A DNA stretch of 64,000 bases from Thiohalorhabdus denitrificans (GTDB lineage Bacteria; Pseudomonadota; Gammaproteobacteria; Thiohalorhabdales; Thiohalorhabdaceae), in assembly GCF_001399755.1 (NCBI RefSeq), contig NZ_LJCP01000007.1, positions 248,001-312,000 on the forward strand, written 5' to 3'. The position numbers were made by a program, and so were the translations under genes. A model generated the notes under the pieces. The model worked only from the letters and a program-made list of their open reading frames with translations, did no database searches and was not told the DNA's origin. Numbering within the stretch: position 1 is the first letter of the stretch; the number at the start of each line of letters is the position of its first letter. Below are positions 47,437 through 61,902 of this stretch, in pieces.

Positions 47437-47653
47437 TCTAAATCAAGGGCTTATAGAGGTTCCCTTAAGCCTGATTCCCCCTCTGGGTCACACATGGGTC
47501 ACACCCTGATCCTTGTAAGGCCCTTGAGAGACCCAGCCTGGGTGAGGGCACCCGCTCATTCCAGGCCCGCGTGGTCTCCCTGCCTAACCCTGTTCCTTAC
47601 CTCCCTTCCTTGTCCTCTCTCTGCCCCTGCTCACCAAGCGACAGGAGAGGAAT

Positions 47654-48479
47654 TTGACCACCCACAATCCCACCGCTGCGGCCGTTGCCACCCGTGTTCC
47701 CGAGGACCACGCCGTCGGGGGCTTGGAGTACGGCGGCCACCACAACGGGCGCCGCTACGTCCGCCCAGTGGGTATGAACCTTTGGGGCCTGGCCCGCGAG
47801 CTGCCCGGAGAGGACCTGCCGGGGCCCGCAATCATCCTCGATGAGCTCAACGCTGAGCTGGACCGCTGGGACCACTTGCCACCAGCCTTTCATCCCGCGG
47901 TGGCCGTCTTCCTGGAGGATGGCGGCCTGCGGGCGGTTTCTGAGGCGGAGGATTACCGGGCCGTGCTTCCGGAGTAGGCCTGGGAACGCCTGGCCGAGCA
48001 CCTGGAGCAGCACGGCGCCCGCGCCCAGAGCACGATCTGGGGCCGGCACATGCGGGCGGTGCTCCAGGCCTGCGACCGCCCCCCCGGCGCTTGATGCGGT
48101 CCTGGATCACTTCTCCAGCCGGGTCATCACTGCCTTGGACGGCCTGAATGGGATTGGGGAGGATCCGGGGGTCAGCCGGCAGGAAGCGGAAGGCCGGCTC
48201 CAGGACGCTGCGGGTCGGTTGTTCGAGGCGGCGCGGATGCTGGAAGAGACCCCCCTGCTTCGGGATGCGGTGTACCAAGACCTACGGGACCGCCTTTATC
48301 AGGCCCTGTTCTGGTTGGAGCGGGCGGGGTGCGGGGCATGCACCATGACCACGGAGGAGCTCGCGGCGGTGGTGACGGCGGCTAAGCGCCAAGCGGAGCC
48401 AGTATGGGTTCGGGCCTCGGACCTCCAGGAGGCGCCCCTCCCTGCTGAAGCCGAGGCCGTGGCCCGCGTCCCGGCCTGA
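47654..48479 (+). pseudogene. Mobile-element gene broken by one nonsense and one frameshift lesion
   Basis: Begins at TTG 47654 after AGGAGAGG. The first 107 codons end at TAG (47975-47977), but the same frame continues as protein-like sequence (AWERLAEHLEQHGARAQS, GRHMRAVLQACDRPP); CAG to TAG is a plausible mutation. At a run of seven C (48079-48085) dropping one base joins this to LDAVLDHFSSRVITALDGL and on to the stop at 48479, whose frame has no good start of its own. The repaired product would be about 274 aa, helical and acidic. No family recognised; the surroundings suggest phage or plasmid origin. Confidence 0.65.
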
Positions 48480-48561
48480 GCAACCCTTCCCCCTGGCCGG
48501 GTCCCTTCCGCAATTCGCGGGGTTAGGGGCCCGGTTTTTCTCTACCCCCTTCCGGGCACCC

Positions 48562-49138
48562 ATGCCCTCCGCAACACCTGGCGGACCAGCCCACCATCGG
48601 CGGGGTCAGCATCCCGGTGAACGAGCACGGGCGGGTGAGCCTGAATGCGCTCCACCGGGCGAGTGGGGCTGGCTCAGAAAAGGGACCTGGCAGGTGGCGC
48701 CGGTCCCGGCAGGCCCAGGAGCTTGCTGAGGAGCTGAGGCCAGATGTGGCTTCTGACCCTGTTTCGGTTGCGAGCACAGGATCCCCCGGCACCTACGCCC
48801 ACCCCGACCTGGGCATTTCCTACGCCGGTTGGATACGTCCCGCTTTCCAGGTCCAGGTGAACCGCACCTTCCGGCAGTACCAGGAGGGCACCCTGCCGGC
48901 CCGGCCTTCCCGGGGCCTGTTGGAAGGCGCGCCGCGGGCGGTGAAAAAGTTGGAGACGCAGCGGATCGTCCCCTCTGAGGCTCTGACAGAGCCCGTGCCC
49001 CCAGCCGGAACTCCGCGGCGATACCGTGGGCCAGGCCCTGGCCACCATCTGGGATCTGGGGTCGGCGCTGCGGACATGCAATGGGCGGCTGGGGATGGGG
49101 GGGAGTGGGCCGGGGAAGACAATGAGCCTGTGGAATGA
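48562..49138 (+). pseudogene. KilA-N domain (phage antirepressor-type) relic
   Basis: The frame through GGVSIPVNEHGRVSLNALHR, then RQAQELAEEL and TYAHPDLGISYAGWIRPAFQ followed by VQVNRTF matches the KilA-N DNA-binding domain of phage regulators. The frame has no start codon: its N-terminus extends back past the GTG at 48617 without a Met, while the ATG at 48562 is in another frame. Past about residue 130 the similarity stops, and another frame looks coding (GQALATIWDLGSAL), so a second shift is likely. It is a phage remnant. Confidence 0.7.
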
Positions 49139-49346
49139 GGCCGACCAATCATAATACCTATCAAAAAGTTTTTAGGACGTAAACGCTGTCGTGGCGCCCT
49201 CCTCCGCTACCGCAGTATCTCTCCTTGCATCAAGAGCTAGGTAAGGGAAGAGGAAGCATGTCACGGGATGTCGAGAAAGTTTTCACTTAATCCGGAAGAA
49301 GATTGAACCTAATAGGAAAACATTTTATAAACAATTCGATAGTTAT

Positions 49347-49361
49347 TGGCATAGCTGTTGC
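49347..49361 (+). promoter_or_regulatory. Sigma-54 (RpoN) promoter upstream of the PEP-CTERM HAF gene
   Basis: TGGCAT-N5-TTGC: GG at 49348-49349 and GC at 49360-49361 have the exact -24/-12 spacing, with TT after the second block. Predicted start near 49373, 60 nt before the ATG. Sigma-54 control through a PrsK/PrsR-type system is known for many PEP-CTERM genes. Confidence 0.75.
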
Positions 49362-49432
49362 TTCAGGAAGGCAAACGTTACTGGACAACTAGTTCCGGGC
49401 CAGTACGTAAGAGACGGCCCAAGGAGTAGCTG

Positions 49433-50701
49433 ATGCCAACATTATCCGCAAAAAAACCAACCGGCTTGAAAACTACCTTCAGGGATGACGGAGGCCGGCA
49501 GCTCCCGAAGCCATCACTAGGCTGTATGCCATACACCCCTCGAAACACCACTCTGGGGGCGCTGGTGGTGAGTGTCGCGCTCGGCATGGCCGCTCCGGCA
49601 GCCTTGGCGGTGCCCACTTACAATGTAACCGACCTCGGCGACCTTCCCGGTGGTGAAGACCTCAGCAACGCCTCCGACATCAACGATGCCGGCCAAGTGG
49701 TGGGTAGCAGTGAAGACGCTTCAGGGCGCCGGGCCTTTCGATGGGAGTCCGGTAGCGGCATGACAGGCCTGGGCGACTTGCCCGGGGGGGAGGTAGATAG
49801 TCACGCCTGGGGTATCAACAACGCCGGTCAAGCCGTGGGCTACAGCAAAGCCACTGGGCAGCCGGGGAGTCTGGCTGTCCGGTGGGATCCCGGCAGTGGC
49901 ATGACCAAACTAGGCGAACTGCCCGGGGGTGCTGACTACAGCAACGCCTCCGACATCAACGACGCCGGCCAAGTGGCAGGTAACAGCAATGCTGCAACAG
50001 GGTTCCGGGCCGTCCGATGGGAGCCCGGCGGTGGCATAACCAACCTAGGCGACCTGCCCGGGGGGATGGACTACAGTGCCGCCTACGGCATCAATAACTC
50101 CGGCCAGGTGGTTGGCAACAGTGAAGACGCAACAGGAGAGTGGGTGGCCTTTCTTTGGAAGCCAGGCACCGGAATGACTAACCTTGGGGATCTGCCTGGG
50201 GGGGATGTCTCTAGCATCGGTCATGACATCAACAATGCCGGCCAAGTGGTGGGCAGCAGCCAAGACGCTTCAGGGCGCCGGGCCTTTCGATGGGAGGCCG
50301 ACAGTGGAATGACGAAACTGGAAACCCTACCTGGGGGAGATGACCACACCGAAGCCTTCGGGATCAACGACTCTGGCCAAGTGGTGGGCTATAGCCGCAC
50401 CGACAGCCACATCGCCGCCGGGAGGCGCGCCTTCCTCCACGAAGAGGAGGGGGGCATGTTCCAGCTAGATGACCTTATCGATCCTAGCGATCCCCTTGCG
50501 GGTATTACCCTGACTAAAGCCCAAGGGATTAATAATCATGGCCAGATCGCTGCGCATGGACATCTGCCTGGGGAAGAGGCAACCAGTGCCTTTCGCCTGA
50601 CCCCAAAATCTACCTCTGTCCCCGTTCCCGGGCCCTCTAGCCTTGCCTTGCTTGGGTTAGGCTTAGCCGTTGCGGCAGGCTCGGTCCGTCGACAAAGTTG
50701 A
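49433..50701 (+). CDS. Secreted HAF-repeat protein with PEP-CTERM-like sorting tail
   Basis: 422 aa; ATG 49433 has AAGGAG upstream, though Met32 (49526) would give a more normal signal peptide (LGALVVSVALGMAAPAALA ends near 59). Seven repeats of about 46 residues carry I-N-D/N-x-G-Q-V-V-G at 83, 129, 175, 220, 266, 311 and 366, each preceded by LGDLPGG. The C-terminus has a VPGP motif, a hydrophobic helix (SSLALLGLGLAVAAGSV) and RRQS: a PEP-CTERM signal with Gly for Glu. Such proteins are processed by exosortase and displayed or secreted into the matrix. No exosortase is in the window. Confidence 0.85.
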   Translation: MPTLSAKKPTGLKTTFRDDGGRQLPKPSLGCMPYTPRNTTLGALVVSVALGMAAPAALAVPTYNVTDLGDLPGGEDLSNASDINDAGQVVGSSEDASGRRAFRWESGSGMTGLGDLPGGEVDSHAWGINNAGQAVGYSKATGQPGSLAVRWDPGSGMTKLGELPGGADYSNASDINDAGQVAGNSNAATGFRAVRWEPGGGITNLGDLPGGMDYSAAYGINNSGQVVGNSEDATGEWVAFLWKPGTGMTNLGDLPGGDVSSIGHDINNAGQVVGSSQDASGRRAFRWEADSGMTKLETLPGGDDHTEAFGINDSGQVVGYSRTDSHIAAGRRAFLHEEEGGMFQLDDLIDPSDPLAGITLTKAQGINNHGQIAAHGHLPGEEATSAFRLTPKSTSVPVPGPSSLALLGLGLAVAAGSVRRQS

Positions 50702-50780
50702 AGGGAAGCCATTCCTAGGGAGGAACTTTAACAGTGTGAGGAATTCGGGGCCTCGTTGGGCTGTACCTCCTTGAAGGGTC

Positions 50781-50857
50781 AAAAAGCGCTTCCAAGGAGG
50801 CTCACAAAACCGCTTTTTGCCCCCGGCAACCAGGTGTTTCCGCCCCGTTGCCGGGGG
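50781..50857 (+). terminator. Inverted repeats after the HAF gene
   Basis: AAAAAGCG/CGCTTTTT (50781-50818) and CCCCCGGCAAC/GTTGCCGGGGG (50820-50857) follow the HAF stop by 80 nt. The first ends in T; together they probably stop transcription. Confidence 0.5.
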
Positions 50858-50874
50858 TTTCCAGGGAGACGTAG

Positions 50875-51153
50875 CTAAACAGGTTGTCCTGGGGATTTTC
50901 GGCGCCCCGCACGCCGGGCCTCCTTCAGGTTTGTGGGTTCGCCCGTAGGATGCCAAAACCCGGACTTTTTCAGCAGCCTGTTAGGGCGAACCGCGCTACG
51001 GTTGAGATTCCCCTGCCCAAGCAACCGCCCGATTAGCTCGCGCACCTTCCTTGTACGCTCGTACCCAAGCCCCCGCGCCAGGTCCAAGTCGTAGACCATG
51101 GGCTCGCCGTTGATCCAGTAGACCAGGAGGCCCTCGCCGTGGGGGCGCCGCAT
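50875..51153 (-). CDS. Short phage-regulator-like ORF (antirepressor N-terminal type)
   Basis: 92 aa if started at ATG 51153 (a longer in-frame Met at 51249 is less likely). GEGLLVYWINGEPMVYDLDL-type start followed by ARGLGYERTRKVRELIGRLL resembles the N-terminal helix-turn-helix segment of phage Rha/antirepressor proteins. The part after residue about 55 does not fit and is probably degenerate. Lies downstream of DUF3800 on the same strand. Low-confidence family call. Confidence 0.45.
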   Translation of the reverse strand: MRRPHGEGLLVYWINGEPMVYDLDLARGLGYERTRKVRELIGRLLGQGNLNRSAVRPNRLLKKSGFWHPTGEPTNLKEARRAGRRKSPGQPV

Positions 51154-51288
51154 CCCTGCCTGATGCCAATATGCGCTTGTGCCTTGCCACGGGGCCGCGT
51201 CACGCCGGTGGCGAGGCCACCGCTTGAAACTCCTGCCGCGCTTCCGCACACTAAGGGGTACCGGATTGGGAACGCCCGATCGGCGGGA

Positions 51289-51312
51289 GGCCTCGGCGAA
51301 TGCGCCGGGGCC
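51289..51312. terminator. GC hairpin after the DUF3800 gene
   Basis: GGCCTCGGCG / CGCCGGGGCC (one G-T pair) with an AATG loop, 10 nt beyond the DUF3800 stop. The T-rich flank lies on the plus side, so orientation is unclear. Confidence 0.45.
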
Positions 51313-51321
51313 TTTCGCTTT

Positions 51322-52062
51322 TCAGGGGTAGCATTTCAGCCCCCACCCCTGGATTTTCCCGTTCTGGTCCCGCCTGATCTTTGGCTCCAGGATGGCGAAG
51401 GCCCGGTTGGGCTGGCTTGGGTCCAGGATGTGCCGGCCAATCGGCCGGGCCACCATGTCGGCAAGCTGGAGCCCGGCGGAGTTGACCTGCTTATCCGCCA
51501 GCACCAGGTCCAGTGTTTCCCCCATTCCCGCCATCTGGGTCCGGTCCATGATGCGCCGGAACTCCAGTTCCAGGGCCTCGTCCTCTTGGCGGCCCCGCCG
51601 CTCGAACACCACGTGGTTCAGCTTGCCGCGCTGCCCCCTACCCTGGAGCTCCAGGAATACCCGCTCCAGCCCGTACTCCATGGCGATGTGGTAGGGGTTA
51701 TGGTCCACCCCCTTGCGGTGCGCGAAGGCTTCCTTCCGGATGGCCGTGGCCACGATGGTGAATGGGGCCCGGCTAATCAGGTCGGTCAGTTCTTCCATGA
51801 ACGGCTCCCGCAGCCGGGGGTTCAGCAAGAACTCGAAAGGGGGCCGAGCTTTGCGGATTTCCGCCTCGTGGAGGATCACCATGTCGTGGCCGAAGTAGCG
51901 GAACTTCAAGTCCTGGATGGCCGGAACCACCTGCTCCAGGTAGCCGCGCTTCTCGAACAGGCAAAAGGCCAGGACGAAGATGGGGTAGTCCGGGTTGATG
52001 CTGGTGAGCCCGTGGTCCCCGCTTTCGTCCACATAGACGATGTAGTCGCTGAATTCTCTCAA
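51322..52062 (-). CDS. DUF3800 domain protein, coupled to restriction-modification gene
   Basis: 246 aa. N-terminal YVDESGDHG (10-18) is the acidic RNase H-like motif of DUF3800; further acidic positions are VVFERRGRQEDEALELEF and LQLADMVARPIGRH near 200-213, where Asp is conserved. The fold suggests a metal-dependent nuclease. ATG 52062 lies 2 nt after the stop of the MmeI-like gene, so both are translated together, which points to a role in the same defence module. No proven function for the family. Confidence 0.85.
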   Translation of the reverse strand: MREFSDYIVYVDESGDHGLTSINPDYPIFVLAFCLFEKRGYLEQVVPAIQDLKFRYFGHDMVILHEAEIRKARPPFEFLLNPRLREPFMEELTDLISRAPFTIVATAIRKEAFAHRKGVDHNPYHIAMEYGLERVFLELQGRGQRGKLNHVVFERRGRQEDEALELEFRRIMDRTQMAGMGETLDLVLADKQVNSAGLQLADMVARPIGRHILDPSQPNRAFAILEPKIRRDQNGKIQGWGLKCYP

Positions 52063-52064
52063 CC

Positions 52065-55000
52065 CTAGGCCGCCCGGTATTCACCTTCCTCGTTCTGCTG
52101 CGCCTGCCCTAGGGCCTCCAGGGTGTCCAGCAGCTCCGCCACTTTCTTCTTCTGCGCCCGGTGGAACTGGCGGGCCACCACCTCCGGCTCCACGGGGGTG
52201 GTGGCGCCCTCCAGCACCTCCCGCACGGCCTGGATCTGCTCCGGCAGGGTCTTGGGCCAGGAGCGCTTCTTGGCCTGGGTGGTGGCCATTTTCTCGGCCT
52301 GCTCCTCCACCATCTCCGCCTGGGTGGGGGCGCGGCCCTCGGGGTTCTGGTAGTCCGGCCGCAGCCAGCGGATGTGGCCCCGCTTCTCCTCCTCGGCCCG
52401 CTCGGCGTTGAGCGCCGCCAGGCGCCCGAGCAGCTCCTCCTCGGCCTCGGCCTGCTCGGGGTCCAGGTCGGTGCGGGGGGTGGTGCCGCCGGGCTTGCCC
52501 ACCAGGGCCGGGGCCAGGTCGCTCCAGCCGTAGGCCGCCAGGACGGCCTCGTCCAGGCGATCGTGGAGGTCGGCGAGGACGGAGACCAGGCCCTGGTCGT
52601 AAGCGGCCCGCTCCGCCCGGGTCAGCTCCTCCCCGGCGCGGAGCTTGTCCAGGGCGTTGTACATACCGGTGAGGGTGAGGTCGGGGTGCTCGGCCTGCTG
52701 GCGCTTGCGGTGGGCGTCCAGCTCCGCGGCCAGATCCCGGATGCGCTGGCGGGAGACCTCGTCGGTTTCCGGAAATGGGAAGGTCTGGAAGCAACGAGTG
52801 TTCACATAAACTAAATCATTTCCAACGCCCAGCCTACTTCCAGAAGCTAAGGACCAGCGGGCATGAGTCCGACTAGAAAGAATTCCTAAATCAAATGAAT
52901 CGCTTAATGCTATATTGAAGAGCTTATTATCGGGCAAAACATTCTTGTCCAAGAAAACAAAGGTTCGGTGCTTTGTATTTTCAAGAGTTGCAATATAGCG
53001 GTCTAGCCCATCTAACATTTCCCGAAGGTCAGGTCTCGGTTTCCCGAATTGCCACCAATTTTTGGCATATTCGGCTCCGTCCTTGGTGTGCCCTTTTGCC
53101 TCTCGCTCCGGTTTTACTCGCTCGGCGATCCATTGATATACCGCGGGGAAACGGCGTCGCACCTCCTCTTCTTCAAGGCCGTAAAGGTCAATTACCAGCA
53201 CCCCACGGGGTCGTTGGGTAAGATCCCGCCCATTACGGTATTGGCGAATATGTTTTTCTAGACCCGGTGTGGAGCCGAGGCCGAGTTCTTTTGCTTGGTC
53301 TGGCGTAACAATGAAACCAGAGCCAACAAGGGTTACCCCCCGGTTTCCTATGCCAGAATTAGCCTCCAAGGGAATAGCGCCCGAGACATCAGCACCTACC
53401 GTCAGGTCTGGATGTAATTTCCCGCTACGAGTAGCAAGTTCAACAGTAACTCCCTCCTCCCGGGCGGATTTTTCGGAAATAACCCAAGCCAAAGTTCCCA
53501 AGGACCCCCCAGCTTCCCCCACGGTCATGGCGATGCGCACGTCGGCGCCGTCGGCACTGTCCACCCAGGGGTGGTTGGGGATGGCGTAGGCCAGGGACAG
53601 GGGCGCCTTGGCCCGCATGTGGTGCTCCAGGACCCGGCGGTTGAAGGTCTGGGGGAGACTGTTCGTGGTGATCAGCCCGAAACGGCGGATCTCCCCGGCC
53701 CGGGCCAGTTCGGCCGCCTTGTGCCACCAGTACATGACGAAATCGGCGGATTCCGGCACCTCCTCCCAGACTTCCCGTAGGGCCTCCACGTAGCCGTCGC
53801 CGAGGGCCATGCGCATCCGCTTGTTGCCGATGAACGGCGGATTCCCCACCACGAAGTCGGCCGCCGGCCATTCGGCCTTGCGGGGGTTGGTGTAGCGGTG
53901 GACGGGCACCCGGGCGGTCTCGTCCGGCACCCGCTCCCCGGTGGTGGGGTGGGTGGTGTAGGTCACGCCGTCCCAGTGGGTGAGGGCCTGGCCGGCGTCG
54001 TCGGTGACGAGCACGGCCTCGTCGTAGTCGAGCACCGCGTCGCGGCACTCGATGTTGTGGAAGTCCTTGAGCACCGGCTCCTCGGGGGACACGTCGCCGC
54101 GGGTGCGCAAGTGCCACTGGAGGAAGCCGATCCAGAGCACGGAGTCGGTGATCTCCGCGGCCCGGGGGTTGGTCTCCAGGCCGAGGAGCTGGTGGGGATC
54201 CACGGTGACGCCGGACAGCTCCAGTAGGCCCTGGGTCTCGCCCAGGTCCTCCAGGGCGTTCAGGACCTCGCCCTCCAGGCGCTTCATGTGCTCCAGGGTG
54301 ACGTAGAGGAAGTTGCCGGAGCCGCAGGCGGGGTCCAGGACCCGCACCTCGCACAGACGGCGGTGGAAGGCCTGGACGGTCTCCACCGCTTCCTGGGGCT
54401 TGCCCTGGGCCTCCAGGTTGTAGGCGGCGGCCTGGACGTTGCGCCAGTCCTCGCGCAGGGGCTCGATGACCGTGGGGAGGACCAGGCGCTCCACGTAGGC
54501 GCGGGGGGTGTAGTGGGCGCCGAGCTTGTGGCGCTCGGTGGGGTCCAGGGCGCGCTCCAGGAGGGTGCCGAAGATGGCCGGCTCCACGTGGCGCCAGTCC
54601 GCCTGGGCCGCCTCCAGGAGCTGGCCGATGCGGTCCCGGTCCAGGGGGAGCACGGTGGGCTCGGCGAACAGGCCGCCGTTGAAGCGCAGCACCTTGTCGC
54701 GGATGGTGGTGGAGAACTCCGAGCCGGTGTTCATGTCCCGCCACAGGCCCTGGAGCAGCGCGGTGAAGCCCTCGGGGTGGTCCTGGGCCTCCGCCAGCAG
54801 CCGGGTGAAGCTCTCCCGGGGCAGCAGGCCCACGTCCTCGGCGAACATGGTGAACAGGCAGCGCATGAGGAAGCCGCTGGCCACCTCGGCGGCGTGGCCG
54901 TCCGCCTCCAGGGAGCGGGCCAGCACCGCCAGGCGGTCGGCCACCTCCTGGGTGACCCGGGCCGATTGCCGGGCCGGGTCCAGGGCCATGGGGTCCATCC

Positions 55001-55523
55001 AGGCTAGGTACAGGCGCCGGCGGATGGCCGGGTCGCGCAGGTCCTCCAGGGAGATGCGGTGGCTGCGAGGATCGGGGAAGGGGGTGTAGGTGGCCCCGGA
55101 GCGGGAGAACTCCGAGTACAGCTCGATGGAACGGCCCACGTCGGTGACGATCACCAGGGGCGGCCGGCCCTCCTCGATGGGCAGGGCCCGGGCGTAGCGC
55201 TCCGCCTGGGAGCGGGCGCGGAGCAGGGCCTTGTCCAGGCGCTCGGATTCGCCCTGCTCGCCGGTGCCCTTGGCCTCCAGGACGAAGCAGCCGCGGCGGT
55301 ACAGGTCGATGAAACCGTGGGCGGTGGAGCCGTCGCCGTGGTGGAAGGTGACCCGGCGCTCGAACACGTAGCCGTTGTCGCGGGTGTCCTCCCGGGCCGG
55401 GTCCGGGCGGGGCAGCTCCAGCAGGTCGCACAGCTCGTTGAGGAAGAGCTGCGCGTTGGACCGCTCCGCCCCGGCGGCGCCCTGCCAGCGGGTGATGAAT
55501 GCCTCGATGTCCTGATCGCCCAT
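52065..55523 (-). CDS. Single-chain type IIG/IIL (MmeI-like) restriction-modification enzyme
   Basis: 1152 aa from ATG 55523. N-terminal PD-(D/E)XK nuclease with D73-x9-E83-A-K85 ([16 protein letters not shown]), a helical spacer, then a gamma-type N6-adenine methyltransferase: motif [10 protein letters not shown] (397-405) and motif IV NPPF (561-564). Residues about 670-910 correspond to the target-recognition domain, and the rest is a helical C-terminal part. The order matches MmeI, which methylates one strand for protection and cuts about 20 nt away. The gene segment for the recognition domain (about 52795-53515) is clearly AT-richer than both sides, suggesting exchange. Alternative: BREX/DISARM-type methylase, less likely because of the fused nuclease. 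Confidence 0.9.
52795..53515 (-). other. AT-rich insert inside the restriction-modification gene (target-recognition region)
   Basis: Reading from the flanks, codon use changes sharply near 53515 and back near 52795, from strongly GC-rich third positions to A/T-rich ones, while the reading frame stays intact. It covers residues about 670-910 of the MmeI-like enzyme. Confidence 0.7.
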
Positions 55524-55886
55524 GGGTCCCCCGGTGTCGTGCGCCGGACAGGGTACCCGGGCGTTTGGACAAGCGGAAGGCCCCAGCAAGCCCTGTTCAA
55601 AGGGCTTCTAGCCTGAATTTGTCTAATCTAACTTTTATGACCTGCCCCCGTTTTTAGGGCCACTTCTTACTTAGGAGCGCCCGGTGGCTATTCCACGGAC
55701 CCGGCCCAGCTCCGCAGCCCCCAACCTTCCTTCAGCGTCACCCCCGGAACTCCACCTCCGCCTCCCGCTCAACCCCCGTTATCCATTCCAAACTTGACCG
55801 CAGTCATAACGGCACCCCCGGCAGGCGTGCCTAATGGTTCATGGCAGTTCCTATGCAACTTTCCCACGCCAGCGAGGGGCTGAGCC
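55524..55886. other. Divergent regulatory region of narG and the restriction-modification gene
   Basis: 363 nt without an ORF. Contains an AAGCCC/GGGCTT hairpin near 55591, and the FNR-type site and promoter of narG (55794-55835). Confidence 0.5.
55794..55807 (+). promoter_or_regulatory. FNR/DNR-type box upstream of narG
   Basis: TTGAC-CGCA-GTCAT, matching TTGAT-N4-ATCAA at most positions. A -10-like CCTAAT lies at 55830-55835, putting the box centre about 41 nt before a start near 55842, the class II activator position. Anaerobic induction of the nar operon is inferred. Confidence 0.65.
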
Positions 55887-58800
55887 ATGAGCCATTTCCT
55901 CGATCGTCTTACCTTCTTCCGGCGGATCCAGGGCGAGTTCGCGGAGGGGCACGGCCGCACCACCGACGAGGACCGCTCCTGGGAGAAGGCCTACCGACAG
56001 CGCTGGCAGCACGACAAGGTGGTGCGCTCCACCCACGGGGTGAACTGCACCGGCGCCTGCTCGTGGAAGATCTACGTCAAGGACGGTCTGGTGACCTGGG
56101 AGACCCAGCAGACCGACTACCCGCGCACCCGCCCGGACCTGCCCAACCACGAGCCCCGCGGCTGTCCCCGCGGGGCTAGCTATTCCTGGTACATCTACAG
56201 CGCCGCCCGGCTCAAGTACCCCATGGTGCGCGGCACCCTGCTGCGGCTGTGGCGGGAGGCCCGGGCCCGCCATACGGATCCGGTGGAGGCCTGGGGCGCC
56301 ATCGTCGAGGATCCCGAGAAGCGGCGCAGCTACCAGAAGCGCCGGGGCCTGGGGGGCCTGGTGCGCTCCTCCTGGGAGGAGGTGGAGGAGATCACGGCGG
56401 CGGCCAACGCCTACACGGTCAAGACCCATGGCCCCGACCGCATCGCCGGCTTCTCGCCCATCCCGGCCATGTCCATGGTTTCCTACGCCGCGGGAACCCG
56501 CTACCTGTCGCTCATCGGCGGAACCTGCCTGTCCTTCTACGACTGGTACTGCGACCTGCCGCCCTCCTCGCCCATGACCTGGGGCGAGCAGACGGACGTG
56601 CCCGAGTCGGCGGACTGGTACAACGCCAAGTTCATCATGATGTGGGGCTCCAACGTCCCCCAGACGCGCAGTCCCGACGCCCACTTCATGACCGAGGCCC
56701 GCTACAACGGCACCCAGATCGTGACGGTGTCGCCGGACTACGCCGAGGCCACCAAGTTCGCCGACCTGTGGCTGTCGCCCAAGCAGGGAACGGACGCCGC
56801 CCTCGGCATGGCCCTGGGCCACGTCATCCTCAAGGAATTCCACATCGACCGGCAGGAGCCCTATTTCCAGGACTACTGCCGCCGCTACACCGACATGCCC
56901 ATGCTGGTGCGCCTGGACGACGCCGACGGACGCACCGTGCCCGGCCGCTTTCTGCGCGCCAGCGATCTGGCCGAGGGCCTGGGCCAGTCGAAGCACGCCG
57001 ACTGGAAGACCATGACCTGGGACGAGGCCTCGGGGGGTCTGGTGGCGCCGCAGGGCTCCATCGGCTTCCGCTGGGACGAGAGCGGCCGCTGGAACCTGGA
57101 GGAGCGAGAGGGCGGCGCCGGCGGGGAGACCCGGCTGCGGCTGTCCCTGATCGAGGACCGCGACGAGCTGGCCACCGTGGCCTTCCCCTACTTCGGCGGA
57201 GTGGCCCACGAGCACTTCCCGGACAACCAGCAGGAGGAGGTCCTGCAGCGCCGGGTGCCGGCCCGGCGTATCACGCTGGCCGACGGGAGCACGGCGCTGG
57301 TGGCCACGGTGTTCGACCTGATGGCCGCCCACTACGGCGTGGACCGCGGCCTGGGCGACGAGGCCGTGGCCGGCGGCTACGAGGAGGACGTCCCCTACAC
57401 GCCCAAGTGGCAGGAGTCCATCACCAGCGTGCCCGCCGACCATGTGGTGCGGGTGGCGCGCGGCTTCGCCGACAACGCGGTGAAGACCCGGGGGCGCTCC
57501 ATGGTGATCCTCGGGGCGGGCCTGAACCACTGGTACCACATGGACATGAGCTACCGCGCCATCATCAACATGCTGGTGATGTGCGGCTGCATCGGCCAGT
57601 CCGGCGGGGGCTGGGCCCATTACGTGGGCCAGGAGAAGGTACGCCCCCTCACCGGCTGGACTCCGGTGGCCTTCGCCCTCGACTGGGTCCGGCCGCCGCG
57701 CCACATGAACGGCACCTCCTTCTGGTACGCCCACACCGACCAGTGGCGCTACGAGAAGCTCTCCGCGGAGGAGATCCTCTCGCCGCTGGCGGATTCTTCG
57801 CAGTGGAGCGGCAGCCTCATCGACTACAACGTGCGGGCCGAGCGCATGGGCTGGCTGCCCTCGGCGCCGCAGCTCAACCGCAACCCCCTGCGGGTGGCGC
57901 GGGAGGCGGCCGAGGCGGGCAAGGACCCCAAGGACTACGTGGTGGAGCAGCTGCGGTCGGGGGGGCTGGGCCTGGCCTGCGAGAACCCCGACGCGCCGGA
58001 GAACTGGCCCCGCAACCTGTTCGTCTGGCGCTCCAACCTGCTCGGCTCCTCGGGCAAGGGCCACGAGTACTTCCTCAAGCACCTGCTCGGCACCGACGAC
58101 GGCGTGCAGGGCAAGGAGCTGGGCGAGGAGGCCACCCACAGGAGCGAGGAGGTCGCCTGGCACGGGGAGGCCCCGGAGGGCAAGCTCGACCTGCTAGTGA
58201 CCCTGGATTTCCGCATGTCCACCACCTGCCTCTACTCGGACATCGTCCTGCCCACGGCCACCTGGTACGAGAAGAACGACCTCAACACCTCCGACATGCA
58301 CCCCTTCATCCATCCGCTCTCGGAGGCGGTGAATCCGGCCTGGGACGCGCGCTCCGACTGGGACATCTTCAAGGGCATCTCCCGGGCCTTCTCGCGGGTC
58401 TCCGAGGGCCACCTGGGGGTGGAGCAGGACGTGGTGACCGTGCCGCTGCAGCACGACACCCCCGCGGAGCTGGGCCAGGCCCTGGAGGTCGCCGACTGGA
58501 AGAAGGGCGAGTGCGACCCGGTACCGGGCAAGACCATGCCGAACCTAGTGGTGGTGGAGCGCGACTATCCCAACACCTTCGCCCGCTACACCTCCCTGGG
58601 CCCCCGGCTCGATGAGCTGGGCAACGGCGGTAAGGGGCTGAACTGGGATACGAACCAGGAGGTGGAATACCTCGGTGCCCTGAACGGCCGGCATCGCGGC
58701 GACAGCCCGGTGCGGGGCCGGCCGCTGCTGGATTCGGCCATCGACGCCTCGGAGGCGGTCATGGCGCTGGCCCCGGAGACCAACGGCGGGGTGGCGGTGA

Positions 58801-59639
58801 AGGCCTGGTCGGCCCTGGAGCGGGTCACCGGCCGGGACCACCGCCACCTGGCGGAGGGCCAGGAGGACCGTAAGGTCCAGTTCCGGGACATCGTGGCGCA
58901 GCCGCGCAAGATCATCTCCTCGCCCATCTGGTCCGGGGTGGAATCGGAGAAGGTCTGCTACAACGCCGGCTGGACCAACACCCACGAGCTGATCCCGTGG
59001 CGCACGCTCACCGGGCGCCAGCAGTTCTACCAGGACCACCCCTGGATGCGCGCCTTCGGCGAGGGCTTTGCCGCCTACCGGCCGCCGGTGTCCACCAAGA
59101 CCTGGAAGGGGATGGTGGGCAAGGTGGCCAACGGCCACCCGGAGATCGTCCTGAACTGGATCACCCCCCACCAGAAGTGGGGCATCCACAGCACCTACAG
59201 CGACAACCTGCTGATGCTCACCCTGTCCCGGGGCGGGCCGATCATCTGGATCTCGGAGAAGGACGCGCAGAAGGCGGGCATCGAGGACAACGACTGGATC
59301 GAGGTCTTCAACGTCAACGGCGCGGTGGTGGCGCGGGCGGTGGTCTCCCAGCGGGTCCGCGAGGGCATGGCCATGATGTACCACGCCCAGGAGCGCATCG
59401 TGAACACGCCGGGCTCCGAGATCACCGGCAACCGCGGCGGCATCCACAATTCCGTGACCCGCACGGTTGTCAAGCCCACCCACATGATCGGCGGCTACGC
59501 CCAGCAGAGCTACTTCTTTAACTACTACGGCACCGTTGGCTCCAACCGCGATGAGTTCGTCGTGGTGCGCAAGATGGACCGCGTCGACTGGCTGGAGGGC
59601 GACGACGAAAGCATCCTGGCGCAGGAGTACACGCGATGA
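55887..59639 (+). CDS. narG: Respiratory nitrate reductase alpha subunit
   Basis: 1250 aa. Bis-MGD molybdenum subunit of the membrane-bound nitrate reductase. FS0 iron-sulfur ligands H50, C54, C58 and C93 (THGVNCTGAC, RGCPRGAS); the Mo-ligand Asp lies in TWGEQTDVPESADWYN. It reduces nitrate to nitrite on the cytoplasmic side. No twin-arginine leader. Its TGA overlaps the narH ATG by 4 nt. Preceded by GAGGGG and an FNR-type box. Confidence 0.98.
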   Translation: MSHFLDRLTFFRRIQGEFAEGHGRTTDEDRSWEKAYRQRWQHDKVVRSTHGVNCTGACSWKIYVKDGLVTWETQQTDYPRTRPDLPNHEPRGCPRGASYSWYIYSAARLKYPMVRGTLLRLWREARARHTDPVEAWGAIVEDPEKRRSYQKRRGLGGLVRSSWEEVEEITAAANAYTVKTHGPDRIAGFSPIPAMSMVSYAAGTRYLSLIGGTCLSFYDWYCDLPPSSPMTWGEQTDVPESADWYNAKFIMMWGSNVPQTRSPDAHFMTEARYNGTQIVTVSPDYAEATKFADLWLSPKQGTDAALGMALGHVILKEFHIDRQEPYFQDYCRRYTDMPMLVRLDDADGRTVPGRFLRASDLAEGLGQSKHADWKTMTWDEASGGLVAPQGSIGFRWDESGRWNLEEREGGAGGETRLRLSLIEDRDELATVAFPYFGGVAHEHFPDNQQEEVLQRRVPARRITLADGSTALVATVFDLMAAHYGVDRGLGDEAVAGGYEEDVPYTPKWQESITSVPADHVVRVARGFADNAVKTRGRSMVILGAGLNHWYHMDMSYRAIINMLVMCGCIGQSGGGWAHYVGQEKVRPLTGWTPVAFALDWVRPPRHMNGTSFWYAHTDQWRYEKLSAEEILSPLADSSQWSGSLIDYNVRAERMGWLPSAPQLNRNPLRVAREAAEAGKDPKDYVVEQLRSGGLGLACENPDAPENWPRNLFVWRSNLLGSSGKGHEYFLKHLLGTDDGVQGKELGEEATHRSEEVAWHGEAPEGKLDLLVTLDFRMSTTCLYSDIVLPTATWYEKNDLNTSDMHPFIHPLSEAVNPAWDARSDWDIFKGISRAFSRVSEGHLGVEQDVVTVPLQHDTPAELGQALEVADWKKGECDPVPGKTMPNLVVVERDYPNTFARYTSLGPRLDELGNGGKGLNWDTNQEVEYLGALNGRHRGDSPVRGRPLLDSAIDASEAVMALAPETNGGVAVKAWSALERVTGRDHRHLAEGQEDRKVQFRDIVAQPRKIISSPIWSGVESEKVCYNAGWTNTHELIPWRTLTGRQQFYQDHPWMRAFGEGFAAYRPPVSTKTWKGMVGKVANGHPEIVLNWITPHQKWGIHSTYSDNLLMLTLSRGGPIIWISEKDAQKAGIEDNDWIEVFNVNGAVVARAVVSQRVREGMAMMYHAQERIVNTPGSEITGNRGGIHNSVTRTVVKPTHMIGGYAQQSYFFNYYGTVGSNRDEFVVVRKMDRVDWLEGDDESILAQEYTR

Positions 59640-61183
59640 AGATCCGCGCTCAGATCGGCAAGGTGCTGAATCTCGATAAATGCATCGGCTGCCACACCTG
59701 CTCCGTGACCTGCAAGAACGTGTGGACCTCGCGCGAGGGCATGGAGTACGTGTGGTTCAACAACGTGGAGACCAAGCCCGGCATCGGCTATCCCAAGGAC
59801 TGGGAGAACCAGGACCGCTGGAAGGGCGGCTGGGTGCGCCGCAGTGACGGCGACATCGAGCCCCGGCAGGGCGGCAAGTGGCGGCTGGTGGCCAAGATCT
59901 TCGCCAACCCCCATCTGCCGGAGATCGACGACTACTACGAGCCCTTCAACTTCGACTACCAGCGCCTGCACAACGCCGCCCCCACCAAGGCGCAGCCCAC
60001 CGCCAAGCCCTACTCGGCCATCACCGGCAAGCCCATGGAGAAGATCGAGTGGGGGCCGAACTGGGAGGAGATCCTGGGCGGCGAGTTCGCCAAGCGCTCG
60101 CGGGACTACAACTTCGAGAACGTCCAGAAGGAGATCTACGGGCAGTTCGAGAACACCTTCATGATGTACCTGCCCCGGCTCTGCGAGCACTGCCTGAACC
60201 CCAGCTGCGTGGCCAGCTGTCCCTCGGGGGCCATCTACAAGCGGGAGGAGGACGGCATTGTCCTCATCGACCAGGACCGCTGCCGGGGCTGGCGCATGTG
60301 CATCTCCGGCTGCCCGTACAAGAAGATCTACTACAACTGGCAGTCCGGCAAATCCGAGAAGTGCACCTTCTGCTATCCGCGCATCGAGGCCGGCGAGCCC
60401 ACCGTGTGCTCGGAGACCTGCGTGGGCCGCATCCGCTACCTGGGGGTGCTGCTCTACGACGCCGACCGCATCGAGGAGGCGGCGAGCGTGGCCAACGAGC
60501 AGGACCTCTACGAGGCCCAGCTCGACATCTTCCTCGACCCCAACGACCCCGAAATCATCAAGCAGGCCCGCGCCGACGGCGTGCCGGAGGAGTGGATCGA
60601 GGCGGCCCAACGCTCCCCGGTCTACAAGATGGCCATCGACTGGAAGGTGGCCTTCCCGCTGCACCCCGAGTACCGGACGCTGCCCATGGTCTGGTACGTG
60701 CCGCCGCTGTCGCCCATCCAGGCGGCCTCGGACGCCGGGCAGATCGGTAGCGACGGCTTGATCCCGGACGTGGAATCGCTGCGCATCCCGGTGAAGTACC
60801 TGGCCAACATGCTCACCGCCGGCGACGAGCGGCCGGTCACCCACGCCCTGCGGCGGCTGCTCGCCATGCGGGTGTTCAAGCGCGGGCAGACCGTGGACGG
60901 CGAGGCGCGCCAGGACGTGCTCGAGCAGGTGGGCCTCGATGAGGACCTGGTGGAGGACATGTACCGCTACATGGCCATCGGGGACTACGAGGACCGCTTC
61001 GTCATCCCCACCAACCACCGCGAGCTCTCCTCCGAGGACGCCTACGGCGAGCGCTCGGGCTGCGGCTTCAGCTTCGGCGACGGCTGCCACACCCACGGCG
61101 TCACCCGCACCAACCTGTTCGGCAGCAAGAATCCCCGGCACCGCGAGCACGCCCCGCCCACCATCCGGGAGGTCGACGAATGA
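59636..61183 (+). CDS. narH: Respiratory nitrate reductase beta subunit
   Basis: 515 aa. Four iron-sulfur clusters: C16, C19, C22, C26 (CIGCHTCSVTC), CEHCLNPSCVASC, CRGWRMCISGC (Trp in the second position marks the 3Fe-4S cluster) and CTFC with CSETC. Relays electrons from NarI haem to NarG. Overlaps narG and narJ by 4 nt on each side, so translation is coupled. Confidence 0.98.
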   Translation: MKIRAQIGKVLNLDKCIGCHTCSVTCKNVWTSREGMEYVWFNNVETKPGIGYPKDWENQDRWKGGWVRRSDGDIEPRQGGKWRLVAKIFANPHLPEIDDYYEPFNFDYQRLHNAAPTKAQPTAKPYSAITGKPMEKIEWGPNWEEILGGEFAKRSRDYNFENVQKEIYGQFENTFMMYLPRLCEHCLNPSCVASCPSGAIYKREEDGIVLIDQDRCRGWRMCISGCPYKKIYYNWQSGKSEKCTFCYPRIEAGEPTVCSETCVGRIRYLGVLLYDADRIEEAASVANEQDLYEAQLDIFLDPNDPEIIKQARADGVPEEWIEAAQRSPVYKMAIDWKVAFPLHPEYRTLPMVWYVPPLSPIQAASDAGQIGSDGLIPDVESLRIPVKYLANMLTAGDERPVTHALRRLLAMRVFKRGQTVDGEARQDVLEQVGLDEDLVEDMYRYMAIGDYEDRFVIPTNHRELSSEDAYGERSGCGFSFGDGCHTHGVTRTNLFGSKNPRHREHAPPTIREVDE

Positions 61184-61902
61184 GTGCGCACACGGAGACC
61201 CCCTTGCCCTGGGCGCTCAAGGCCGTGTCCCGGATGCTGGCCTATCCCGAGGCCGACCTGCAGGCGGCGACCGGCGACCTGGCCCGGGCCGTGGTGCCGC
61301 GGCCGGAGCTGAACTCGGAGGAGCGCTCGGCGGTGCGGCGCTTCCTGGACGGGCTGGGGGAGGAAGACCTGCTCGACCTCCAGGCCGCCTACGTGGAGAC
61401 CTTCGACCGCAGCAAGAAGGTCTCCCTCTACCTGTTCGAGCACGTCTACGGCGAGTCCCGCGACCGTGGCCCGGCCATGGTGGAGCTGAAGGAGGCCTAC
61501 CGCGAAGCGGGCCTGGAGATCGCCTGCGGCGAGCTGCCCGATTACCTGCCCATGTTCCTGGAGTTCTGCGCCGAGCTGGGGGAGGGCGGGGCCCGGGACT
61601 GGCTGGAGGAGACCGGGCCCATCCTGCAGCAGCTCCACGTCCGGTTGGTGGAGCGGGACAGCCGCTACGCCGTCCCCCTGCGGCTGCTGCTCCGCCTGGC
61701 GGAGCTGGACCCCGCGCCCGAGGAGCTGGTGCGTGCGGCGGAGGCCGAGGAGCGGGACGACACGCCGGAGGCCCATGACCGGGCCTGGATGGAGGCCCCG
61801 GTCACCTTCGGGCCCGACCAGCCGGCGGGAGGCGGTGGCCAGGCGCAGCCGGTGCAATGGGTGGACCGGGACCGGGCCGCCGGGCAGACCGGACGGAGCT
61901 AG
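61180..61902 (+). CDS. narJ: Nitrate reductase assembly chaperone
   Basis: 240 aa. TorD/NarJ-like helical protein: LLAYPEADLQAATGDL-type start (RMLAYPEADL), DLQAAYVETFDRSKKVSLYLFEHVYGESRDRG, YREAGLEIACGELPDYLPMFLEF. Binds apo-NarG until the molybdenum cofactor is inserted, and is not part of the final enzyme. The Gln/Gly-rich tail is longer than usual. Confidence 0.95.
   Translation: MSAHTETPLPWALKAVSRMLAYPEADLQAATGDLARAVVPRPELNSEERSAVRRFLDGLGEEDLLDLQAAYVETFDRSKKVSLYLFEHVYGESRDRGPAMVELKEAYREAGLEIACGELPDYLPMFLEFCAELGEGGARDWLEETGPILQQLHVRLVERDSRYAVPLRLLLRLAELDPAPEELVRAAEAEERDDTPEAHDRAWMEAPVTFGPDQPAGGGGQAQPVQWVDRDRAAGQTGRS

Follow-up and report, generated by a model that had tools for sequence, protein, structure and literature searches.

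A sharply bounded AT-shifted target recognition domain in an MmeI-family enzyme of Thiohalorhabdus denitrificans, and the exchange of such domains between family members

Restriction-and-modification enzymes of the MmeI family (Type IIL) cut about 20/18 nt from an asymmetric recognition site and methylate one strand. In MmeI itself, the methyltransferase ends at residue 620 and the target recognition domain (TRD) comprises residues 621-825 (PMC4833311). Published accounts describe members of this family as changing specificity readily, as one TRD serves both activities (PMC4833311; PMC4081073), and one of them also names domain exchange (PMC4081073). TRD exchange by recombination is likewise the classical means by which Type I HsdS subunits change specificity (PMC3874165), and movement of domains via recombination has been described to do the same in Helicobacter pylori (PMC3983042).

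Here we analysed a window of 64,000 nucleotides from Thiohalorhabdus denitrificans (contig NZ_LJCP01000007.1, positions 248,001 to 312,000), whose minus strand carries, at 52065-55589, an intact open reading frame (ORF) of 1174 codons with a TTG start. The likely start is the ATG at 55523, which leaves 1152 codons and a span of 52065-55523 that matches the end given in a first-pass annotation made from the letters alone. The features of the gene are as follows (GC3, GC content at third codon positions).

52065..55523, minus strand: MmeI-family (Type IIL) restriction-and-modification enzyme, a single chain (Pfam, PADLOC, PDB 5hr4)
54903..55514, minus strand: N-terminal endonuclease domain, aa 26-229 (Pfam MmeI_N, over its cut-off)
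54666..54878, minus strand: helical spacer, aa 238-308 (Pfam MmeI_hel, over its cut-off)
53541..54389, minus strand: N6-adenine methyltransferase domain, aa 401-683, with motifs DPACGSGNF and NPPF (Pfam MmeI_Mtase)
52767..53324, minus strand: target recognition domain, aa 756-941 (Pfam MmeI_TRD, 44 bits against a cut-off of 27)
52767..53516, minus strand: AT-shifted patch, aa 692-941, GC3 0.44 against 0.96 (changepoint, per-codon GC3, exchanges in homologues)
52068..52766, minus strand: C-terminal region, aa 942-1174, GC3 again 0.95-0.97 (per-codon GC3, phylogeny)

Pfam, PADLOC and the 5hr4 structure agree on the MmeI-like enzyme that the first-pass annotation had proposed. MmeI_N, MmeI_hel, MmeI_Mtase and MmeI_TRD lie in one chain and in MmeI order, the domain arrangement of the MmeI family (Type IIL). 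The C-terminal region has no Pfam match listed and groups phylogenetically with the upstream flank. PADLOC scores REase_MTase_IIG (Type IIG) highest, at 1557 bits, and MmeI (5hr4) is the sole PDB sequence relative at an E-value of 0.001 (E 1.8e-43). An AlphaFold2 model of the enzyme built from 67 sequences (pLDDT 86.7, pTM 0.78) also has 5hr4 as its best structural match (Foldseek 1.2e-31; Z 31.2, rmsd 7.4, 712 residues aligned). Residues D73, E83 and K85 (A1 numbering, aa minus 22), which we read as the putative PD-(D/E)xK residues of the endonuclease domain, are invariant over the 67 sequences and found in this gene, and the NPPF and DPACG methyltransferase residues, invariant or nearly so in the same sequences, are kept as well. 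The gene product is predicted to be an unremarkable Type IIL enzyme, and its subfamily occurs mainly in Pseudomonadota.

The enzyme shares with MmeI the order of endonuclease, helical spacer, N6-adenine methyltransferase, TRD and C-terminal part (PMC4833311), but it is about 230 residues longer, at 21-25% identity. Counted on the sequence alignment, the MmeI base-6 pair Glu806/Arg808 is replaced by Gly/Asp, and Arg810 by Val. Reading the recognition sequence from the MmeI contact residues was given up, since the 806/808 pair fits neither known rule (PMC4833311).

Both genus-mates, G001 and G002, are without the gene; in the stretches compared, their matches to the window stop at 47453 and resume at 55875, with none between, which puts the enzyme in a variable region of about 8.4 kb (47454-55875). 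No R, M or S partner is encoded separately, the recognised neighbours being a HAF-repeat protein and narGHJI. The HAF-repeat protein (49433-50701) adjoins the enzyme and has weak PEP-CTERM-type matches and a GC3 of 0.65. A second narG-like gene (64%) is present in the same genome (G000:C7:370276-373968), and in one genus-mate the match (G001:C6:210-608) is confined to the first 138 residues and contains a single internal TGA. Elsewhere in the window, a 190-codon ORF at 2140-2712 (GC 0.37 and GC3 0.31, against a window GC of 0.68; no NCBIfam match) looks recently acquired. At the thresholds used and own genome aside, relatives of the enzyme occur in 9 of 369 genomes in a class draw and 15 of 398 in a phylum draw, at 51-65% identity. 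Relatives, most of them full-length, are also found at 22 loci on predicted viral contigs (L137-L158; phage genes or host DNA); one of these copies, L152, has 41 stops in the matched stretch when read in one frame and is probably frameshifted.

The first-pass annotation had further described a sharp-edged, AT-richer patch at 52795-53515 that covers the TRD of this GC-rich gene with the frame intact, a description that our analysis bears out with slightly different limits. A two-edge changepoint on third-position GC places the patch at codons 692-941 (52767-53516), with edge support (2 log units) over codons 690-698 on one side and 939-943 on the other, and its log-likelihood gain of 164.8 compares with at most 14.1 in 100 codon shuffles. 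Overall, GC3 is 0.444 in the patch and 0.957 elsewhere in the gene; along the gene it is mostly 0.85-1.00, drops to about 0.42 from aa 692, and recovers at aa 941. The single ORF runs through the patch, which spans the Pfam TRD match and ends where that match ends. GC1 and GC2 are nearly flat across the gene, except at codons 841-920. At columns at least 90% conserved in homologues, this gene has a GC3 of 0.43 in the TRD and 0.98 in the flanks; the dip therefore does not come from amino-acid choice. Flank GC3 is the same as in the adjoining nitrate reductase genes (narG 0.95, narH 0.96; these genes overall 0.92-0.96), so the backbone fits the host and the patch does not. Since aa 692-941 align with MmeI 587-824, the unit takes in the final ~30 residues of the methyltransferase fold as well as the TRD.

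TRD exchange as a mode of evolution, which the first-pass annotation had assumed for such enzymes, is directly visible between homologues. From 262 loci we retained a subfamily sample of 80 at 52-67% identity, discarded six whose matched stretch is interrupted by a stop (L023, L030, L058, L070, L075 and L087), and aligned the remaining 74 homologues with this gene (75 genes, 2775 pairs). Pairwise identities upstream and downstream of the patch are correlated (Spearman 0.72), whereas those of the TRD follow neither the upstream (0.05) nor the downstream flank (0.00). Sliding windows correlate with the flanks at 0.2-0.7 for the most part, but lose this correlation at about aa 726-935 (-0.16 to 0.15). 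Among the 53 pairs with upstream identity of at least 0.85 and downstream identity of at least 0.75, the TRD is below 0.60 identical in 37 and at least 0.75 in 7. One such pair, L018/L031, is 0.983 identical upstream and 0.969 downstream but 0.441 in the TRD, with nucleotide edges at aa 693 and 931; conversely, L013 and L046 have a TRD in common (0.758) on unlike backbones (upstream 0.720, downstream 0.628). Held-out genomes give a like pattern (L049/L100: upstream 0.943, TRD 0.537, downstream 0.874).

Edges were analysed at the nucleotide level in 19 pairs chosen by eye: the upstream edge falls at aa 689-699 in 8 and the downstream edge at aa 917-941 in 15, the remaining edges being blurred or longer. 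The exchange boundaries of the clean pairs coincide with the patch in this gene. Tree tests on 46 rows agree, in that the TRD data reject the upstream tree by 501 and the downstream tree by 525 log units; the downstream data, too, reject the upstream tree, though far less strongly (108 log units; SH p 0.148, AU p 0.0005). These comparisons show, at the level of sequence, that the TRD block is traded as a unit between family members while the flanks are inherited together.

This gene has no close relative, the best identities being 70% upstream and 62% in the TRD. Compared with 70 homologues, its TRD and its downstream flank have the same mean identity (0.51 each) and rank the relatives indistinguishably, with Spearman correlations of 0.15 for upstream against downstream and -0.22 for upstream against TRD. 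AU tests on the TRD data reject neither the gene's flank clade (p 0.206) nor a Thioalkalivibrio clade (p 0.072). Its own swap is instead suggested by base composition and by the match of its edges to exchanges in homologues, and composition is likewise what makes the exchange appear recent. Relative to the expectation from its own flank codon usage, the TRD has a GC3 deficit of -0.53, against a mean of -0.175 in 106 homologues (SD 0.10, most extreme -0.47). Ten other genes with an expected GC3 of at least 0.92 have TRD GC3 values of 0.60-0.91, against 0.43 here. The first-pass annotation's claim of a recent recombination patch thus stands in part: this dip exceeds all others among 107 genes (z -3.6), but AT-richness of a TRD does not in itself establish a recent swap, because 104 of the 106 homologues also have lower GC3 in the TRD.

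We consider it likely that this gene gained its block at aa 692-941, in frame, through exchange with a homologue of lower-GC origin. Recombination between conserved stretches flanking the TRD block would have replaced the resident TRD and kept the frame, with a homologous gene of lower GC as donor, at a time that would be recent on the scale of base-composition adjustment. As one TRD is expected to direct both cutting and methylation in a single-chain Type IIL enzyme, the two specificities would have been altered together. A search with the TRD alone found only itself in its own genome, a best match of 60.9% in plasmids, a single weak match in phage records, and none in viral contigs with TRD patterns. 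An assembly chimera or contamination that fused alleles of two strains could produce a similar picture in a genome of 15 contigs with 1.29% contamination; nevertheless, frame and conserved residues cross both edges, the edges coincide with natural exchange sites and the gene is single-copy, which makes an artefact of this kind barely credible.

The near-universal TRD dips mean that a process besides import could contribute. Two 250-codon control blocks are below expectation in only 26 and 28 of 114 rows (near copies included), in contrast to the TRD in 104 of 106 homologues. The first homologue set shows the dip in 72 of 74 genes and a further set of distinct genes from other genomes in 20 of 20, with duplicates and the gene's own copy uncounted. 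The count of 106 excludes L152 with its stops, the near copies L043, L061, L063, L138, L143, L144 and L088 (the last equal to L031 in its aligned parts), the partial or duplicate L095-L098 and L112, and the partial L157; it also excludes L136 (its duplicate L140 never entered), whose value of -0.02 would make it 105 of 107. AT-rich cyanobacterial plasmid relatives, most of which adjoin DISARM genes, show the dip in 10 of 10 cases, aligned at 23-29% identity with rough edges. The dip also appears in 11 of 12 genes with an expected GC3 below 0.6, an outcome that exchange within the family would not produce by itself. When donors were drawn at random from the family's own flank compositions, in a crude model that ignores relatedness, at most 67 of 106 genes showed dips in 2000 runs, against the 104 seen.

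The dip extends to Type I systems, where HsdS TRDs have a lower GC3 than the longest same-strand neighbour ORF in 28 of 30 cases (mean -0.177) and in 19 of 19 where that ORF lies upstream; these neighbours were not identified as hsdM, and loci were available for 30 of the 70 matches listed. An HsdS TRD in the T. denitrificans genome itself, unrelated to the MmeI-family enzyme (L190; G000:C10:109569-110096), has a GC3 of 0.46 beside an ORF at 0.93, nearly like the MmeI-family TRD.

These counts, in homologues of high and low GC and in HsdS, favour a standing property of TRDs, by which domains too divergent to recombine would escape a recombination-linked, GC-raising force (GC-biased gene conversion or recombination-assisted selection) and drift towards AT. 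Yet at like flank GC3 the TRD spans 0.43-0.91, and in Thioalkalivibrio, with similar flanks, 0.54-0.77, so composition follows the allele; moreover, drift to 0.44 in a genome of GC3 ~0.96 would need very long residence. For this gene we regard such a standing property as rather unlikely. That slow or pausing codons are favoured in the TRD by selection on folding or expression is very improbable: the dip is equal at conserved and variable TRD columns, as such selection would allow, but the TRDs of some GC-rich genes reach 0.83-0.91 (L044, L101).

A special case of the exchange that we prefer is a pool of AT-rich donors, in which low-GC carriers (plasmids, phages or low-GC hosts) would lower GC3 with each import, followed by slow adjustment. 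It would account for the one-sidedness and for the tracking of host composition by TRD GC3 (r 0.71), and full-length relatives do occur among plasmid records (coverage of at least 80% in 74 of the 418 that match), and relatives are present at the 22 viral-contig loci, most of them full-length. However, the viral-contig TRDs themselves lie below their own flanks in all 21 scored rows, including one interrupted by stops, at GC3 0.39-0.76, which does not make an AT-rich reservoir, and annotated phage records give only one weak TRD match; we therefore hold this pool to be somewhat doubtful. More generally, we tentatively suggest that Type IIL and Type I HsdS TRDs may share a one-sided synonymous AT shift relative to their own genes or to neighbouring ones, whatever the GC of the host. 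This could arise if they come from one shared AT-rich mobile reservoir, or if domains too divergent to recombine internally elude the GC-raising force that acts elsewhere. Our limited literature search found no description of TRDs with a one-sided shift in GC3, and we do not claim that none exists. There is reportedly a literature on biased gene conversion in bacteria, which makes the escape reading testable.

If the proposed exchange took place, this gene clearly exemplifies how the recognition part of an enzyme that cuts and protects through one domain can change in a single step. TRD trading is already known as a kind of event, and this gene is an unusually visible example of it. The family picture is one of inherited backbones and traded TRDs with a defined exchange unit at about aa 690-935, which also shows where engineered swaps could be joined. 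Less expected is the one-sided base composition of the traded TRDs, which suggests either that donors are AT-rich or that TRDs escape a force raising GC, and which offers a testable lead on where TRDs originate, or on whether recombination raises bacterial GC. If the escape is real, TRDs would be natural markers for measuring that force.

The methyltransferase-TRD part of the enzyme is related to DrmMI of DISARM and to PglX/BrxX of BREX (PADLOC DrmMI, 270 bits; matches to 8c45 and 9ewz), but this enzyme bears its own endonuclease domain. PADLOC found no match to drmA, drmB or drmC in six further ORFs within 47841-61902 or in two lying upstream, and none of these eight ORFs matched BREX genes. 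Assignment as a DISARM DrmMI was accordingly rejected, there being no adjoining drm genes among the eight, as was assignment as a BREX PglX, with 26 bits to NCBIfam BREX_6_MTaseX against a cut-off of 900 and no BREX cluster. In the alteration of specificity through recombinational TRD exchange, the family resembles Type I HsdS and the H. pylori systems (PMC3874165; PMC3983042). Type I systems, however, place two half-site TRDs in a separate S subunit, whereas here one TRD lies within the same chain that cuts and methylates.
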